41,273 bases of DNA from Candidatus Dojkabacteria bacterium. Its GTDB lineage: Bacteria > Patescibacteriota > Dojkabacteria > J137. Below the pieces are notes generated by a model. It ran no database searches. It saw only the letters and a list, made by a program, of their open reading frames with translations, and was not told where the DNA came from. The position numbers were made by a program, and so were the translations under genes. Below, in pieces: positions 16,633 to 27,213 of the stretch (within the stretch, counting starts at the first letter, position 1; each line of letters opens with the position of its first letter). The stretch spans positions 1-41,273 of the forward strand of contig JAUZRK010000019.1 of NCBI GenBank assembly GCA_030950485.1. Direction: 5' to 3'.

Positions 16633-17762
16633 CTATTCAGTAAGATCAACATTCATTGTTTCAATAGTTTGTTTAATCTGTCCTTTAGCATAATCTAAAT
16701 CATTTGGAGTATACAAAGTCATTCTTGCATAAGCATACTCTGTATAATAAGGAGTTCCTGCAACCGGGAAAGTTTCTTCTCCTCCTAAATATTGAGCTAC
16801 AATATCATATGCGCCATCAATCCAATTTAATTTATGAACAGTTACATTGAAAGTTAAACCGTTTGCACTTTGTAGGGTATAGCTCTCAACAAGAGTTGAA
16901 TCTGGATGAAAATCAAAACCATCTACTTCGCATGTATCTAGATTAACAATAAGATTATTTGTAAGTCTAAAGTTTTCATTTTTTCCATCTATCATATCCT
17001 GAAAATTATTACTCATACAACCACCACCTTGAACATATGTTTTATCAATCGACAAGTCAGAAGCTACTTTGAAATAAGTTTGAGTAAAATGATTACCTGT
17101 TATTGTGTTTAATGTTCTATCTATCGGAGGTTGTGTAGTCTCAACAGGAATAGTATTAAAAGCAATTGTCTCGTAAACAAAAACACCTGCCCAAACACCA
17201 CCTGGTAGTGACTTCTCTTTAACAATGTCAATGTTAGTATTTCCTACAACGTAAAAATGAACTGATCCACCAAGAGCATCATTTCTAAATCTAGCAACAG
17301 GTGCAGTATCAGAGTTTGGCGAATCATAAACACAGAATGCTTCTGTTTCATAACTAAACGCTCCCTCCCAAGCTCCACCTTGAGCTGATTTTGAAATTAC
17401 TATATCTTTGTTTGCTTCTCCTACAACATAAAAGTGAATTGATTATTTAAGAATCGATATACTGGAACTGTTCCTGCTGGACACCCACTATTAAAATCAA
17501 ATGCTTTAAAAGCTACCGTTTCGTATTTAAATGCGCCATCCCAAGCTCCTCCTGGTGCAGATTTACTAACAACAATATCTTTATTAGTATCTCCCATAAC
17601 GTAGAAATGAGCTGAACCTAATTGGTTGTTTAGGAATCTGTAAACATTCTGCGCAGTTGCAGGATCAGGATTTGCATGTACCTGTTTAGTATTAAAGATT
17701 ATCAAAAATGATAATGAAAGTATTGATAATGATATAAATGAGTTAATTGTTTTCTTGATCAT
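16633..17762 (-). pseudogene. Secreted protein with three DUF5648-like repeats and a C-terminal domain shared with the next gene; frame disrupted near 17440-17450
   Basis: The ORF at 17421-17762 breaks at RFLNNQ. The other frame resumes as SIHFYVVGEANKDIVISKSAQGGAWEGAFSYETEAF... and runs into the 16633-17055 ORF. Confidence 0.8.
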
Positions 17763-17788: not shown

Positions 17789-20332
17789 TTATATTTGCGT
17801 AAAATCTAAATTCATAGTTTCAATAGCTCTAGTTACATCATCTCTACCTTCTGCAAAATCGCTCCCATGCCACTGCATTGTGACGAAACTTTTAATAATA
17901 TCAGTTCCTCCAGCAACTTGAGTATCTTGACTATAACTTGCATAAATTCGTTTAACAGTTGGCTCACTATCAATATAAAATTACTCAATATTAAAAGTCT
18001 TTCCATTCAAACTTGTTAATGTATATTCATCAACCATAGTTAAACTTCCGCTTCCTCCACCATATCCATCAAGACAACCGACAATACTAATATATAGATT
18101 GTTATCGAATTGAATCCATTCAGTATTACTAGAGTAATTTGCTATAGGTTCATAAGTTTGATTTAAACATGTCGTAACTACTCTTGAACTATTAACATCT
18201 ATATTTAAAGTTGAATCATATTCGAATCCGATATTGAAAAACTCAGAGTTAAATGTCTCTGTTGTCATTTCATCAGCTGGATAAGCATAAAATGCATTCG
18301 ACTCGAATGTGAAAGCACCAGCCCATGCTCCTCCAGGAGCTACTTTAGATTTTAGGTTATTTATTTCACTCACTCCTGTTATATAGAAGTGAACGGAACC
18401 TCCTAAGATATTATTTCTAAATCTACCTACTGGTTCAGTTCCTGATTGAACACTATCAAATACACAGAAAGCAACTCTCTCATAAGCAAATGCATTCTCC
18501 CAAACACCACCTTTTGAAGTCTTTTCTATTAAAGTATTTTTATTCGCTTCACCTACTATGTAGAAATGAACAGAACCATATTTATTATTTAGGAATCTGT
18601 AAACTGGAACAGTTCCAGTGACACAGCTATCTACGTATTGATAAGCTTTGAAAGCAATCGTTTCGTAAGTAAAAGTTCCAGCCCAAATACCACCTGGCTT
18701 TGAATTATTAATTACTTTATCTCTATTAGCATCACCTAATACATAAAAATGAGCAGAGCCTCCAAGATCATTATTTCTAAATCTATACACATTTTCTTCA
18801 AGAAATTGAATATTATCTACTACTAAAACTGATTTTGTAATTGAATCTGAGTCACCAATAGAGTCAGTCACAGTTAAACTAATATAATATGTGCCAGAAA
18901 CCCCAAATGTAAATTGTGGATCTTCTAATGTTGAATCAATTATGCCATCATTATTAAAGTCCCACTTCCAAGAAACTATGTCACCAAGTGAACTACTATT
19001 TAAATTTAGAATGCTACCAACCTCAATTGCAATTGAATTAGACGAATTGTTCATTAAAAAGTCTGCCTGAGGAGAAGTTGCTGAAGAACTATTTAATAAC
19101 TCATTAGTCATTTGGACTTTATAAATTTTACTTACTAAACCAGTAAAATCAGAAGTATCAGCTTCAAATGCTAATACATATATTATTCCACTTCTTGTTT
19201 CAATAATTCTTTCTAGAGTCCCTTCAGTTACACTAGATAATATGTTGAAAATATCTTTGTATTTACCATCACGAGAAGTTCTGTAAAGTTCACTACTAGA
19301 TGGGTTTTGCCAAGAAAATGAATTAGAACCATTTTTTGTTTGTTTAAAATCTAATGGATGTATGAATGTCCAATTTTTATCTATTAGATCATAAGTCTTC
19401 TGGGTGTTTGTGTCTAAGTTGTAAACATAGTAATAACCAGCACCCCATGTTTCAGTAAAAGAAATGTTACTATCATCTAATAAAAAGAAGTAATATCCAT
19501 ACATATTTTCTGGAGTTTTATCTTCAGGAGTAAAAACTATATTTACAGCACCATTACTCTTATCCATTATGTAAATACTGTGTGGAGAAAGACTTCCGGT
19601 TGAAGGTACATATTTTAAGTCAGTCACATATAGAGTATTTTTACTATCTATGAATAATGGTGAATATACATCACTTAGATAATCATCCTCCTCATTGAAT
19701 AATATGGTTATATCGATTCCATCAAACTTCCTAAGTTGAATATAACCATCTACTAGAGCTTCAAAATAAATAACTCCATTGCTATCAACTACAAATTTAT
19801 CTATCCATGAATAGTCGCCATTAATCTCTATTATAGTTGTGCTATTTGAAGTAGTATTATACTTTAATATACACTGTTGATCACCGCAGTATTTATCAGT
19901 GTATATATTGCCATCATTACCTAGAACTAGATCTACTGGCGTTTCATAGTCTGCATAAGTATATATAACTGATGTTTGCCCATTAGCACTAATTTTTATT
20001 AACTCTGCAGGATTAACTTCATTTCCATCCTGATCATTAATTCTAAACATATAAAGATTATCGTTATTATCAACGAGTAAACTTTCACCTTGCCAATATG
20101 AGCTAAAACTTAAATTTGTAACCCAATTTGTATTTACAGTATATTTTCTACAATCATTGACGCTTTGATCGAAAACATAGTTATCTGGACAAGTATCTGT
20201 ACTTAGAGCTATATCACTGTTTGTATAAGCAGATACTTTTGAATTAAAAATAACCAGCAAAGTAATCACTAAAAATAAAGAAAAAATACCTTTGTTTATC
20301 ATATTACCCATTAAATGAACATTAACTGTCAC
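17789..20332 (-). pseudogene. Secreted beta-propeller-like + PKD + three DUF5648-like repeats + C-terminal domain; in-frame TAA at 17981-17983
   Basis: Signal peptide; PKD (WKWDFNNDGIIDSTLEDPQFTFGVSGTYYISLTVTD). After TAA the same frame reads FYIDSEPTVKRIYASYSQDT...IETMNLDFTQI, matching IETMNVDLTE of the neighbouring paralog. Confidence 0.8.
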
Positions 20333-20375: not shown

Positions 20376-23300
20376 TTAAAAACTTATTCCTCCAAATGGA
20401 TCATTATATTTAAAAGCGTAGAAAGCAATATTTTCGAAAGTGAACACTCCATCCCAAACTCCCCCCTTAGCAGAGTTATCAATTACAGTCTGTTTATTTT
20501 CTTCTCCAGTAACATAGAAATGAACTGAACCGCTTAAATTATTGTTTCTGAATCTGTAGACTGGAACTATCTCTGTATTATCAGTATCATTTTCCGTTAA
20601 AGCACAGAAAGCAACAGTTTCATATGTAAAAGCGCCTTCCCAAAGTCCACCTTCTTTCGAGTTATCTATTACAGTCTGCTTGTTTTCTTCTCCAATAACA
20701 TAAAAGTGAATTGATCCATACTCATTATTTAAAAATCTATAAACTTCTTCACCAACAACACATTGATTGTCTTTTGTTTCATAAGCTAAAAAAGCAACTG
20801 TTTCATAAGTGAATACACCATCCCAAATTTCTCCTTCTTTGGAGTTTTCTTGAACAGTATTTTTATTATCTAACCCAACAACATAAAAATGCGCAGATCC
20901 TCCAAGTGCGTTATTTTTAAATCGATAAACTTCTGTTATTTCAGGCGTATAAGCTAACTCAAACATTGCTTCTAAATTAAGTAGTCCATAACCGGTCTTC
21001 GTATCTTTTCCTTCTGATTCAATATCAGTAGCGCTATCAAATAATATTTGAGTCACTTCGTTTGCTGTTAAATCTGGATTTAGACTCATAACTAAAGCAG
21101 CAGTAGCAGAAACTTGAGGAGCAGCAAAGCTAGTTCCATAAAGTTCTACATTTTCAAATTTTTGTAGAAGAGTAGGGTCAGTCTCATCTATACAATCGTT
21201 ATCTCTTGTACATTGAAAAACAGATACTCTTAATGAATTTGCTGAATTAAAATCACCTACAGGTGCTACTATATCTACTTCTTCTCCCGTATTCGAATAG
21301 AATGCAACTTTATCATTATCATTGCTAGCTCCAACAGCAACAACCCCATCTAAAGCAGCTGGATAATATTCAGCAACATCTCCACTTTCATTTCCTGTAG
21401 CCGAAATTACTATTACTTCAGCATCAATTGCTTTCTGAATAGCTTCTTCAATTATAAAATCACTTTCAGAACCGCCAAGACTCAAATTTATTATATCTGC
21501 ATTGTTTTCAACTGCATGATCAATTCCTAAAGCTAGCGTTAATGTATTTGCACTAGATTGAAAATCAGAAGAAGGATTTGAACAAGTACCATCCCAACCA
21601 CCATTCGAGTCTTTACAAAGTGAAGTATCATTTGGGGTAAATACTTTTATTGGCATTACACTTACATTATAAGCAATACCCGCAGTTCCTACATTATTCT
21701 CTGGATTACCTACAATTATTGATGCTACAGCAGTTCCATGTCCATAGTCGTCATTTGCATGATTAATTTTTTCCAATTCTAGATCATTACAATGGAACTC
21801 TGAATCAGAGTTTAGTTCCCTATAGTTACAGAGATAATCCCATGCCGCATCATAAGGTGATATAAATTTATTTTTATCCATATGAGAAAATTCTGGAGAC
21901 TTTTTATAAGCTCTTTCAAAACCTTCAAAATGATTTGATGTTGTATTAAAGATTACGCCATTTGCTGTAGGATCTCGCGCGATTTCAAAGAAAAAGTTTA
22001 AAATTTTCTCAGGTGGTTGTTCTATATAATCTGAACCAGCATCAAAGTTATAATCTTCATAAGCCACTCCAGTATCTAAAACTGCGACAACAATATTTTC
22101 ATCTCCTCCACATTTAGGATTATTTTCACAGTTTCCAATTTTTGCCCAATATTCTGGTAAGTGAATTTTATCTAGATTCCATTGATAGATTGAACTATAT
22201 GTATCTGGATTCTCTCTATTTAATTCTGTATCTATATCCCACCCTTTAATATTATATTCATAATTTGGCTGTGGAGAGGATTTATCCTCTATTAATGAAA
22301 TCTCAGTTAACTTATTTATAAGTATTTCTGCTGAGACTTCTATTACTATATATTTATTAAGCTCATTGAAGCTATCTATCCCATAATAATTATTCTTTAA
22401 AACATTTAAAGTTTTTGCACTTATATTTGATTTAACTAATAATATTTGATTTTTCCCATTTACTACTATTAAATCCTGTCCATCTACTAATGTTTTTGCT
22501 GCTAAGTTTTTAATTAAAACATTTGATTTTGGTCTAGCTTTAATCTTTGTGACTATATTCGGTAGAAAGTTATAAACATTACCAGGACATATTGTATTAC
22601 TTCTATCCTTATGACCAAGCATAGTAGAGCCCATTATTAGGTCAATATTATTTAAATCACTTAAAAATGCAGTTAATTTCTCTAATGATTCTAAAGATGC
22701 AGTTGAAGGGTTTGTTGTTGAATAATCTCCTATAATTGAAATTCCAATAGTTCCTGAATTAGGGTATGAATGCGCTCCAATTGAGCCATTACCACCAGCT
22801 CTTCCCTCATAAATATTACCCTTAGAATCTATTATGTAGTTATATCCTATATCTTGCCATGTTTCTGAAGCTTCATCACAGTTTGCTGGATTAGAAGCAC
22901 CAGGGCTTGGATTAAAACTCCCTGATCCATCTGAACATCTATACTTATGAAATTCAAAAATAGCTCTTACTGAGTTTGAAGGATTATTTATATCTTCAGT
23001 TGTAGCAGTATGGTGAACTATGATTTTGTTTGGTTTTGAAATCTCTGGTGTCCACCCGCTTTCAGTTGACGCTCCCCAATCTTCTCTTGTAATTAAGTTA
23101 ATACCAGCTTTAGAAAATAATGCTTTTTTATAATTTGAATAGTCAGACTCTAATCCAGCTTTTTTGATATTTGTATCAGAGTAATCAAAACCATATGTTC
23201 TTATTATTATTTCATCAGAAGCAATATTAGTTTCAGAATAAATTTTTACTGAGGTAATACCTGGGTTAAATAAATATAACTCAGAATTTTTATTTTCATT

Positions 23301-23567
23301 TCTAGGTAGAGTAGAAGTATGAATTCCGAATTCTTCTTCTTCTGAATTAATTCTATTTATACTTGAATTAGTGCCATCACTATATTTAACTGAATATGAA
23401 AATGAATCTATATTATCGCCTGAGAAAGAAACACCATATTTAGTTTCATTGAAAGCAGTTTCTTTAACTAGAACATTATTTTCAGCAGCTACTAGGTTAG
23501 TGTTTGTAATCCCCCAAATGATTATAAATCCGAATAAAAATATAAGTGAGTTAAGTATTTTTTTCAT
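20376..23567 (-). CDS. Secreted fusion: N-acetylmuramoyl-L-alanine amidase/PGRP-like + peptidase S8 (subtilisin) + three DUF5648-like repeats
   Basis: Signal peptide. Amidase: INLITREDWGA, IIVHHTATTED, LGHKDRSNTICPG. S8: VAVLDTGVA, DDYGHGTAVAS, VISATGNESG, YGTSFAAPQVS. Repeats VYRFxNNxxGGSxHFYV. Confidence 0.92.
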   Translation of the reverse strand: MKKILNSLIFLFGFIIIWGITNTNLVAAENNVLVKETAFNETKYGVSFSGDNIDSFSYSVKYSDGTNSSINRINSEEEEFGIHTSTLPRNENKNSELYLFNPGITSVKIYSETNIASDEIIIRTYGFDYSDTNIKKAGLESDYSNYKKALFSKAGINLITREDWGASTESGWTPEISKPNKIIVHHTATTEDINNPSNSVRAIFEFHKYRCSDGSGSFNPSPGASNPANCDEASETWQDIGYNYIIDSKGNIYEGRAGGNGSIGAHSYPNSGTIGISIIGDYSTTNPSTASLESLEKLTAFLSDLNNIDLIMGSTMLGHKDRSNTICPGNVYNFLPNIVTKIKARPKSNVLIKNLAAKTLVDGQDLIVVNGKNQILLVKSNISAKTLNVLKNNYYGIDSFNELNKYIVIEVSAEILINKLTEISLIEDKSSPQPNYEYNIKGWDIDTELNRENPDTYSSIYQWNLDKIHLPEYWAKIGNCENNPKCGGDENIVVAVLDTGVAYEDYNFDAGSDYIEQPPEKILNFFFEIARDPTANGVIFNTTSNHFEGFERAYKKSPEFSHMDKNKFISPYDAAWDYLCNYRELNSDSEFHCNDLELEKINHANDDYGHGTAVASIIVGNPENNVGTAGIAYNVSVMPIKVFTPNDTSLCKDSNGGWDGTCSNPSSDFQSSANTLTLALGIDHAVENNADIINLSLGGSESDFIIEEAIQKAIDAEVIVISATGNESGDVAEYYPAALDGVVAVGASNDNDKVAFYSNTGEEVDIVAPVGDFNSANSLRVSVFQCTRDNDCIDETDPTLLQKFENVELYGTSFAAPQVSATAALVMSLNPDLTANEVTQILFDSATDIESEGKDTKTGYGLLNLEAMFELAYTPEITEVYRFKNNALGGSAHFYVVGLDNKNTVQENSKEGEIWDGVFTYETVAFLAYETKDNQCVVGEEVYRFLNNEYGSIHFYVIGEENKQTVIDNSKEGGLWEGAFTYETVAFCALTENDTDNTEIVPVYRFRNNNLSGSVHFYVTGEENKQTVIDNSAKGGVWDGVFTFENIAFYAFKYNDPFGGISF

Positions 23568-23607: not shown

Positions 23608-24256
23608 TTATAGCAAAAGCTTTTCGAGGTCCAAGGGCTTGATGACTAAATAGTCGGGGTTTTTAGATTCTAGAAAATCTACTGAGTTTAATCCCCAGCC
23701 TACTGATATGATTTGTATACCTACTTTTCTAGAAGATTTTATATCTTTAACTTCATCACCTATATAAATAGTTTCTTCTTTTTTTTAGTTCCTCTTCTTT
23801 TATAAGCTTTGATAGTTCTTTATGTTTACCAAATAAATTTCTTTCTGAGTAAATTGATTTAAAGGGGTGTATATAATTATTGGCTTCAAAGAATTTAAGT
23901 ACATTAACTTTTGAGTTTGAAGTCAAAATATAGAGGTTGTAATTTTCTTTTAGATCATCAATAAGCTCTCTCATGCCTTTAATGAATTTAGATTGTCCTA
24001 TCTCATTAAACATAGTTTCTTCATGAATTTTAAGCAAATGCGGAACTTTCCAGATAGGGATATCTAACTCTTTGACTATCTCTCTATTTGTCATATTCCT
24101 AAATTCTTTTAGCTTATTATCATCACCAATGTCTATACCATTCTCAGCGCATACTTTTCTTAATACTTTAATTCCCACATCAAACGTATCAGCAATGGTT
24201 AGATCAAAATCAAAGATAATATTTTTAATGCTCTCTTTCATATTTATCGAGTCCAA
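23608..24256 (-). pseudogene. HAD-superfamily hydrolase, frameshifted at an A8 run
   Basis: IIFDFDLTIADTFDVG, LYILTSNSK. Deleting one A from the A8 run (+ strand T8 at 23779-23786) restores EELKKEETIYIGDEVKDIKSSRKVGIQIISVGWGLNSVDFLESKNPDYLVIKPLDLEKLLL*. Confidence 0.88.
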
Positions 24257-24569
24257 AAAGTGAGGTGAAAATTGATATGAATAAACTTAATGCCATTGCC
24301 CAAAGAAGATTCTGTACTGCAAAGCCATCTAATAGCCAATCTATAAATAAAATTATAGCTCCATTGATTACAAAGAGGAATAAACCAAGAGTTATAAGCG
24401 TTATAGGTAAGGCAATTAGTCTTAATAGTGGCCTTAATGTTGCATTTAATATTATTAAAATTAAGGCAAAAATAATAGCTGTTTTAAACCCATTGATTTC
24501 TACTCCAGGTAGAATCCAAGATCCGAAAATTGCAGCTATCGCTCCGGCTAGTATTCTAATTATTATCAT
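24225..24569 (-). CDS. Phage holin family (4_2-type) small membrane protein
   Basis: Four TM helices; ILPGVEINGFKTAIIFALILIILNATLRPLLRLIALPITLITLGLFLFVING. Confidence 0.88.
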   Translation of the reverse strand: MIIIRILAGAIAAIFGSWILPGVEINGFKTAIIFALILIILNATLRPLLRLIALPITLITLGLFLFVINGAIILFIDWLLDGFAVQNLLWAMALSLFISIFTSLFGLDKYEREH

Positions 24570-24633
24570 AGTTCAATTTTATTAGTTAAGTAGCAGTAGT
24601 GCAAGCAAATAATTTAAAGTAAAAGTTTACTAC

Positions 24634-25665
24634 TTATCTTACTCCACTAAGGTGTTTTTTTAAAATTGGCGAGAAAATTTCTTTTTTATTTATAATACCC
24701 ATATCTCTGAAGAGGAAATAATCATTTTTAGGAATTAGTGTTTTACTATTTTTGCTAAAAGAAATTAGTTCTGATAATTGGGTTTTGGTGAAAGCTTGTG
24801 TCAGTCTTCTCGTAGCCGCGACTAGACTTTCTGATCTGAATGATTCAGGAAGAGAGATGTTATCCATATCCCATAATGCCTTAGCATAAAGCATATATCC
24901 TCCACTTAAATATTTAACTTTCTTTAACTTATTTCTAAACTTTATAGTTCTTCTTGTAACAAGGGTATGCCACAATCGATATCTTACAAATTGCTCTATA
25001 TAGATTATTTCTACAAGTTTTGGTAGAGGTTTAAGGTATATAAGGTTGTGTGACATTTGTTTAGCAAGAGGTAGCTGGCCTTCAAATATTATTTCTTTTT
25101 GTGTTTTAACTTTTGAAATTGGAAAAATAAAATGTATTCTTTCTCTATATTTATTACGAATAAACTCAAATACTTTTAATTCATTTTCATAATCTTTATG
25201 CAGAACACTTTCAATGTTATCTAAGTAAATAAAAATACTAAGAGTATTATATTTATTGAATAATCTATTCAGGCAATCCCATAAATCATTATCTGTGGAA
25301 TATTGCATTGGAAAGATTGTAAGCCCCATAAGCATAGCAGAGCCATGAGTTGCTGCTGTTAGTTTCTTTAGTACGAGATCCTTGTATGATTCAAAGACAA
25401 GATTATTGGGAAGGTTTATTTCACCATACTTATTTTGACTGATAGTTAGATCATCCATATCAAAATATACAATTACTCGTTTTTTAGGAATTTTTTTATA
25501 AAAGTATTTTGGTACAAACGGTAAAAGCTTTCCAAGCGTAGATGCTCCAGAGCCTGGAGGCCTGAATATTGTAAAACTTCGACCTCTATTTATATACGGC
25601 AAAAGCTCTTTGATATATTCTTCTGACAATAATAACTTGTCTTTTATGTAGGTAGGCTTGCACAT
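24634..25665 (-). CDS. P-loop ATPase-like protein with degenerate Walker A (GSGAST)
   Basis: RSFTIFRPPGSGASTLGKLL in Walker A position; SIFIYLDNIESV in Walker B-like position. Confidence 0.55.
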   Translation of the reverse strand: MCKPTYIKDKLLLSEEYIKELLPYINRGRSFTIFRPPGSGASTLGKLLPFVPKYFYKKIPKKRVIVYFDMDDLTISQNKYGEINLPNNLVFESYKDLVLKKLTAATHGSAMLMGLTIFPMQYSTDNDLWDCLNRLFNKYNTLSIFIYLDNIESVLHKDYENELKVFEFIRNKYRERIHFIFPISKVKTQKEIIFEGQLPLAKQMSHNLIYLKPLPKLVEIIYIEQFVRYRLWHTLVTRRTIKFRNKLKKVKYLSGGYMLYAKALWDMDNISLPESFRSESLVAATRRLTQAFTKTQLSELISFSKNSKTLIPKNDYFLFRDMGIINKKEIFSPILKKHLSGVR

Positions 25666-25741
25666 ACCGAATTACACTATGTGTATTGCTAAATACGCAA
25701 GGACATCAGTGTTCTAGTAGTCATTTATTATTGACTTGAGA

Positions 25742-26341
25742 TTAATGCTCAGAAATGTAAATTTTTAGTCTGCTTAACTTTGAGAAAAGCTTTGGGTGAG
25801 AGTTATTGATAGCATTTATAACTCTAGTATCTAAACCCTCTGTTAACAGAATAGTTCTATTAGAATTCATTCGATCTCCAAATAGTGCAATTGCTGGAGC
25901 TTGTAATGAATCATCTTCGACTGTAAGTACAAACGGTCCTATTCCAGGTCCTTCTTCAGTGGAAATAATCCTAATAGTAGCACTAGGATATACATGCTTT
26001 ATACATAGCTGCGTAAATATCGCCCATTCTAAACTATCGGATTTAAGGACATGATTATCAGTAGAGAATTTAAATAATTCTCCCTCAAGATCATATTCGA
26101 TTAGTCTACCTATGTGTTTTGGAATCGATTTCACTAGCTGGCTTACTGCAATAGGCAATTCAGTGATAACGGTATTAACAATATCTTGCATAGGACACTG
26201 GGTTAAGTTTTTTCTAGGTCTACATCTAGAAATAATTTCTAATATTTCTAGATGTTGTCCATCCTTATCTAAAGCAAATGATTCTATTAAAGAAAGTTTG
26301 TCTTCTTCTAATTCATTAAAAGCTTTCTCTGCTGTTGCCAT
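25742..26341 (-). CDS. Hypothetical protein
   Basis: 199-aa intact ORF with an extended -10 promoter upstream on the same strand. Confidence 0.6.
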   Translation of the reverse strand: MATAEKAFNELEEDKLSLIESFALDKDGQHLEILEIISRCRPRKNLTQCPMQDIVNTVITELPIAVSQLVKSIPKHIGRLIEYDLEGELFKFSTDNHVLKSDSLEWAIFTQLCIKHVYPSATIRIISTEEGPGIGPFVLTVEDDSLQAPAIALFGDRMNSNRTILLTEGLDTRVINAINNSHPKLFSKLSRLKIYISEH

Positions 26342-26383
26342 TTCTATTGTAGCTACTATATCTCCTAGTGTTTGTATGGAATA

Positions 26384-26392
26384 ATTATACCA
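26384..26392 (-). promoter_or_regulatory. Extended -10 promoter TGGTATAAT
   Basis: tatggtataatt on the - strand about 45 nt upstream of the 26341 start. Confidence 0.5.
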
Positions 26393-26406
26393 TAGCGATA
26401 TATGAG

Positions 26407-27213
26407 TTAGTGAAAAAGGTATTTTTTAATCATTGCAATCTTACTTTTTATTCGGTAATGCTTTAGCGCTATTTTTAACCATGCCTTTCTTTTTGCTTTA
26501 CTCATTTTATAGTCCGGATTTTGCTTTGTTGATATTCCATATCTATGATGAACAACTGTATTTGGATTAAAGATTACTTTCCATCCTTTTTTATTTGCTC
26601 TTATAAAAAGTTCAACTTCATCTAGATGTAGTTTAATTTGTTTCCAATATAGTCCTATCTGTTTTAGCATTTCTGTCCGGTATAAGATACATGTGCCACT
26701 AACGCCCCATCTTTCTTCAATTCTGTTATATTGACCGTTGTCCTTCTCATCGAACCCTATATCGTAAGCTTGCATGAAACCATCGTATATTAAACCTGCA
26801 GAATTTATATTACCTTCATTTTCTGTTTGATAAAATTTTACTAGCGGTCCAACTGCTCCAATTTGTTCATCACTCTCAATAGTTTTTACTAATTCAGATA
26901 TTAGATTTTCTTCAACCTTTGTATCAGGGTTTAAAACCATAATGAAATCTGAATTATAATTTTCAAGGGCAATTTTTATTCCAAAATTATTACCTCCAGT
27001 TAGATATAGGTTTTTTTTGGAGGTAAGTAAAGCAAGTTTTGAGTCTTTATATGATTTAACTATTTCTAAGGTTTTATCATTTGAAGCATTATCAAAAACT
27101 ATGACTTTATAATTTTTATAATCTTGCTTCAAGATTGTATCTAAACACTCTTTGATATCATCCTCGTTATTCCAAGTAACTATAACTACTGAAACATGCT
27201 TATTTCTGCTCAT
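26407..27213 (-). CDS. Glycosyltransferase family 2
   Basis: VSVVIVTWNNEDDIKECLDTIL, NNFGIKIALENYNSDFIMVLNPDTKV, WGVSGTCILYRTEMLKQIGLYW. Confidence 0.9.
   Translation of the reverse strand: MSRNKHVSVVIVTWNNEDDIKECLDTILKQDYKNYKVIVFDNASNDKTLEIVKSYKDSKLALLTSKKNLYLTGGNNFGIKIALENYNSDFIMVLNPDTKVEENLISELVKTIESDEQIGAVGPLVKFYQTENEGNINSAGLIYDGFMQAYDIGFDEKDNGQYNRIEERWGVSGTCILYRTEMLKQIGLYWKQIKLHLDEVELFIRANKKGWKVIFNPNTVVHHRYGISTKQNPDYKMSKAKRKAWLKIALKHYRIKSKIAMIKKYLFH

Follow-up and report, generated by a model that had tools for sequence, protein, structure and literature searches.

On the minus strand of the 41,273-nucleotide stretch analysed here (the window), which comes from a tiny, uncultured member of the Dojkabacteria, a single ATG-start open reading frame of 1063 residues without an internal stop (positions 20376–23567) encodes a secreted-looking fusion of a PGRP-type amidase, a Peptidase S8 subtilisin and three DUF5648 repeats. 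We lean towards reading this product as a self-processing secreted two-enzyme proprotein for cell-envelope breakdown. Two elements go beyond a preliminary description of the same DNA, namely a propeptide-like segment that lies between the enzymes and the paired-gene context of their relatives. Little is established about how Dojkabacteria interact with other cells, and roles that can be tested are available for few of their proteins. The fusion and the conserved gene pair link two well-understood enzyme types, and a candidate self-processing, envelope-breaching enzyme of a candidate phylum becomes testable with one recombinant protein.

The preliminary description had proposed one secreted protein with an amidase, an S8 protease and a three-repeat DUF5648 module, and the open reading frame, its hydropathy and the Pfam search, in which all three families lie above cut-off, bear this out. 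A signal peptide is predicted at residues 1–28 (23484–23567), where a hydrophobic stretch begins at residue 4 (hydropathy 2.45) and a likely signal-peptidase site, placed by eye, lies after LVAA. It precedes an all-β domain (residues 29–150, 23118–23483) that also stands in front of the amidase in the alignment rows of relatives. The amidase domain (residues 155–345, 22533–23105) matches Amidase_2 at residues 178–330 with 63 bits against a cut-off of 26, covering profile positions 4–131 of 131, and by sequence it also matches solved PGRPs (e.g. 4z8i, E = 2.7e-13). Residues of about 350–442 (22242–22520) form the propeptide-like segment. The subtilisin domain (residues 470–872, 20952–22160) matches Peptidase_S8 at residues 490–861 with 156 bits against 21.8 over profile positions 2–288 of 288, and PDB subtilisins by both sequence and fold. 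Finally, the putative glycan-binding module of three DUF5648 repeats (residues 873–1058, 20394–20951) matches PF18885 at residues 919–1051 with 50 bits against 25. All of these features lie on the minus strand.

The full-length AlphaFold2 model, built from a 39-row alignment in which the ends of the split amidases are misplaced and only the three fused rows back residues 325–345, has a mean pLDDT of 78 and a pTM of 0.58. It contains, in order, the β-domain (strands at 32–127), the amidase, a β-α-β-β-α unit (366–426), a low-confidence link (428–452), the subtilisin and the repeats. Subtilisins are the top Foldseek matches of the model, and the predicted fold of a split-gene relative of the amidase is PGRP-like. 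Beyond residue 877 three β-β-α-β repeats run to residue 1052, matching the (β3-α)3 description of DUF5648 (PMC11299179); with the profile match, these repeats identify the C-terminal part as DUF5648.

Both active sites had been described as complete, and to compare them we aligned the fusion protein with 30 amidase or S8 relatives and further DUF5648 rows. All amidase rows have His/His, Tyr, His, Thr and Cys at positions 185/186, 242, 319, 325 and 327, and 19 of 19 S8 rows have Asp, His, Asn and Ser at positions 498, 610, 726 and 813, so that the catalytic positions are identical in all alignable relatives and no catalytic residue is lost. The N-terminal enzyme is therefore classed as a zinc-dependent PGRP/Amidase_2 protein on its whole-domain profile match, its zinc ligands (His/His/Cys; H186, H319 and C327) and its catalytic Tyr242 and Thr325, and it is predicted to cleave the MurNAc-L-Ala bond. 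The second enzyme is a Peptidase S8 subtilase with a full-length domain, the Asp498/His610/Ser813 triad and the oxyanion Asn726, and is a predicted protease. Many animal PGRPs are non-catalytic receptors, and animal PGRPs are the closest solved structures, which would suit an amidase-like part that only senses peptidoglycan within what is in effect a targeted protease; however, the full set of zinc and catalytic residues, C327 and T325 among them, is there and does not vary across relatives, and we consider such a sensor very improbable. Two more specific assignments were rejected: the match to the T7SS mycosin model (TIGR03921) scores 174.6 bits, under the curated cut-off of 278.75, and a Bacteroidales antimicrobial protein (BSAP) would be expected to show a MACPF pore-forming domain, which is absent from the Pfam matches of the fusion protein.

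Each part of the protein has known counterparts from which it differs in its arrangement. The amidase shares its fold, zinc ligands and catalytic Tyr/Thr with the PGRP-type N-acetylmuramoyl-L-alanine amidases (PF01510), such as Drosophila PGRP-LB and LysC of Clostridium intestinale, but it is joined to a subtilisin and has the β-domain, found in its relatives too, in front. Secreted subtilases (PF00082) have the same triad and oxyanion Asn, a propeptide-like segment directly upstream and secretion in common with the S8 part; in the fusion, a whole amidase stands ahead of the putative propeptide, and the fused clade and most of the split relatives keep several cysteines. The same terminal three-repeat (β3-α)3 module occurs in secreted proteins directed at surfaces or glycans, namely BSAPs, endolysins and GH70 enzymes (PMC12853789, PMC13379245, PMC11299179), whereas in the fusion it is carried by enzymes of wall and protein breakdown, with no pore-forming or GH70 domain.

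The position of the segment between the enzymes bears most directly on how the protein would work. Its predicted β-α-β-β-α fold (366–426) and an end motif, QPNYEY..W, that it has in common with the propeptides of split S8 proteins make it a putative subtilisin propeptide. One split S8 relative matches Pfam Fervidolysin_NPro-like, and no Pfam propeptide model matches the fused protein itself. A subtilisin propeptide is established to aid folding and is then removed by the enzyme itself (for example PMC10580911). Since the segment lies between the enzymes, maturation of the S8 part should, if the segment acts like an ordinary propeptide, sever the amidase half from the protease–DUF5648 half, and the low-confidence stretch 428–452 is the predicted region of self-cleavage. 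The preliminary description had called the protein a dual hydrolase. The functional link between amidase and protease in that term holds up, given the fusion and the conservation of the gene pair, whereas a lasting single enzyme does not fit the predicted separation; the term probably names a precursor, and the protein would be a two-enzyme delivery form. Self-cleavage would also strip the DUF5648 tail from the amidase, and thus the tail may target the protease only.

We propose the following course of events. The protein would be exported via its signal peptide, and the subtilisin would fold on the propeptide lying between the enzymes. By analogy with subtilisin maturation, the S8 part would then cut at the end of the propeptide, at about residues 428–452, giving an amidase half and a protease–DUF5648 half that would be delivered jointly and in equal numbers (1:1). 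Through its DUF5648 tail the protease would probably be anchored to surface glycan. It would open or trim layers of protein, and trimming and release of the amidase may be a further task of the protease, whereas the amidase would remove stem peptides from peptidoglycan. Self-cleavage, glycan binding, enzymatic activity and the joint action of both enzymes are thus all predicted steps of this scheme.

Clostridial spores offer a comparable coupling, in which pro-SleC is the substrate of Csp proteases (PMC3567191). There, too, a prodomain subtilisin is functionally coupled to a peptidoglycan hydrolase, as an analogy and not by kinship; in contrast to the fusion, Csp and SleC are separate proteins, in spores. 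SleC is not known to be a PGRP amidase. The pairing of the genes, their fusion and the propeptide position suggest that the fused protein may be of this type, in which a protease activates a wall hydrolase.

The pairing of the two genes was compared across 86 genomes of the class, 19 of which have a strong amidase match (E < 1e-8). The amidase is fused to S8 in four of them (the window genome itself, which is G000, then G015, G049 and a broken copy in G003), and an S8 gene is adjacent in ten, either divergent (G010, G011, G018, G024, G028 and G046) or in tandem with S8 first (G001, G007, G027 and G045). In the remaining five, S8 is on a different contig (G043, G052, G058 and G083) or was not found (G036). 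Eight amidase loci were read outside the class: amidase and then S8 are directly adjacent in G228, one or two small ORFs separate them in G134 and G097, and the distance is about 8 kb in G117; at the other four, no S8 lies within the stretch that was read. No other neighbour is common to more than 7 of 20 amidase loci, the most frequent being surface-polysaccharide-type genes. Adjacency that is kept while orientation changes argues for a functional link between amidase and S8, with the reservation that related genomes are not independent. These gene orders suggest that a conserved amidase and S8 pair underlies the fusion and that the pair works as a team on some cell envelope.

Split amidases (L033, L037–L042 and L046) carry an extra C-terminal domain with a predicted β-α-β-β-α-β topology like that of a subtilisin propeptide or inhibitor. 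The predicted topology is the same as that of S8 propeptides, but the profile comparison gives a probability of 7%, and we make no claim of homology. If it binds the neighbouring S8, it would act in trans, either inhibiting the protease or serving for docking.

At the start of most split-gene amidases there is a membrane-anchor-like segment in which inspection by eye showed no obvious cleavage site, and this would place these amidases on the producer's surface. This agrees with an own-envelope role, in which the protease matures or releases the amidase and the pair remodels the producer's wall or surface layer during growth or daughter separation. The window genome has four Mur-ligase-type matches, so that its own peptidoglycan is probable, and CspB/SleC is a precedent for a subtilisin-activated wall hydrolase (PMC3567191). 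However, strong amidase matches in just 19 of 86 class genomes, with one copy broken, are unlike a core division enzyme, and in the fused form the signal peptide looks cleavable and the tail, of the surface-binding type, has been swapped. We regard the own-envelope role as a minority reading, with perhaps a quarter of the weight.

The fusion itself is real but rare within this phylum, the plasmid collection and the viral contigs. Intact fusions number three among the 86 class genomes, and none further was reported in 192 genomes drawn from the phylum; among these genomes the architecture is not a common one. The fusions of G015 (1224 residues) and G049 (1319 residues) come from two other Dojkabacteria families and have the same amidase–S8 order, with 42–43% identity over about 830 residues, which argues against an assembly artefact in the window. 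In the window's own family, G003 (L043, G003:C1:58830–61017) contains fusion pieces in the same order and at the expected length, with several in-frame stops, and is a broken copy, through decay or sequencing error. The three intact fusions group as a single clade both in the S8 tree (support 100/99) and in the amidase tree after removal of six long or remote rows (100/98); with the long branches kept, support for the fused clade in the amidase tree is weak (62/7). A phage origin was rejected, as viral contigs match the amidase domain only and phage records contain nothing that matches the DUF5648 part, and so was spread by plasmids, as no plasmid record covers 80% of the amidase–S8 part. On the Rhizobium phaseoli plasmid pRphaR630c (L133), an S8 serine peptidase gene stands immediately before a ‘phage tail tip lysozyme’ gene, possibly a separate, unrelated case of a protease beside a wall hydrolase. 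We found no paper describing the fused architecture, and none naming Amidase_2 with Peptidase_S8, or the candidate phyla radiation with subtilase and peptidoglycan.

The C-terminal tails show a different pattern. The G015 and G049 fusions have no DUF5648 and end in FG-GAP repeats and in a repeat that matches no assigned family, respectively; only the catalytic core is conserved, and the C-termini are exchangeable (DUF5648, FG-GAP, other repeats). DUF5648 is above cut-off in 5 of 86 class genomes, on S8 in G000, G001, G007 and G059, on the amidase in G001 and G007 (and in G000 via the fusion); in G000 and G009 it is carried by M23 peptidases. The S8–DUF5648 proteins are spread over three separate regions of the S8 tree, so DUF5648 was probably attached more than once. 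About ten more copies occur in the window genome on contigs C1, C2, C3 and C7 (L051–L055), carried by M23 peptidases, a CAP-domain protein and PKD proteins, with several within about 10 kb on C1. In the antibacterial toxins of Bacteroidales, DUF5648 is reported as a probable domain for binding the target glycan (PMC12853789); further occurrences are in endolysins (PMC13379245) and in GH70 enzymes, as a (β3-α)3 module with probable glycan binding (PMC11299179). By analogy, the tail of the fusion is a probable glycan-binding module, glycan binding itself being a hypothesis in this literature, and the isolated tail could be used to learn which surface is recognized.

Secreted hydrolases with exchangeable binding tails look like degradative enzymes, and the pair might instead nourish an auxotroph by digesting the protein and wall remains of dead neighbours. 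The reduced genome (1.41 Mb in 30 contigs) and the patchy distribution, which suits a niche trait, agree with such scavenging, yet it leaves the pairing and fusion of exactly an amidase and a subtilisin unexplained, and we consider it unlikely. For the envelope-breaching proprotein that we favour, another cell seems somewhat more likely as the target than the producer's own wall, on the basis of the secreted form, the toxin-like and lysin-like roles that DUF5648 has elsewhere, the swapping of modules, the patchy distribution and a precedent in the candidate phyla, where a predatory bacterium is said to use secreted peptidoglycan hydrolases on prey (PMC8080830). The attack on a neighbour or host that was first suggested is accordingly kept as plausible. 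More speculatively, and with considerable doubt, the amidase–subtilisin pair could serve Dojkabacteria and related lineages as a dedicated wall-breaching system, activated by the protease and used on other cells, in which the propeptide for S8 maturation also holds the amidase in a precursor and swaps of C-terminal binding modules change the target range.

The fusion's S8 domain is the only one in the window genome, and the fusion gene is the first of a cluster of DUF5648 genes. The next gene, 43 bp downstream (17981–20332, minus strand), encodes a secreted-looking protein of 783 residues with a probable β-propeller, PKD and DUF5648, and is probably a co-transcribed partner; its match to NCBIfam ScyE is weak and under cut-off. 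In the comparison with the G001 and G007 amidases, which have a propeller of their own, only DUF5648 aligned, and we make no claim that the propellers are homologous. A third DUF5648 gene (16633–17762, minus strand) has one frameshift near 17435 and is either a pseudogene or the result of a sequencing error: in the three-frame translation, repeat 1 lies in one frame, and repeats 2 and 3 with the C-terminal part lie in another. The open part of this gene matches DUF5648. Upstream of the fusion gene (23756–27213, minus strand) are genes for a HAD-type hydrolase and a family 2 glycosyltransferase, together with two ORFs without a Pfam match (24634–25665 and 25742–26341).
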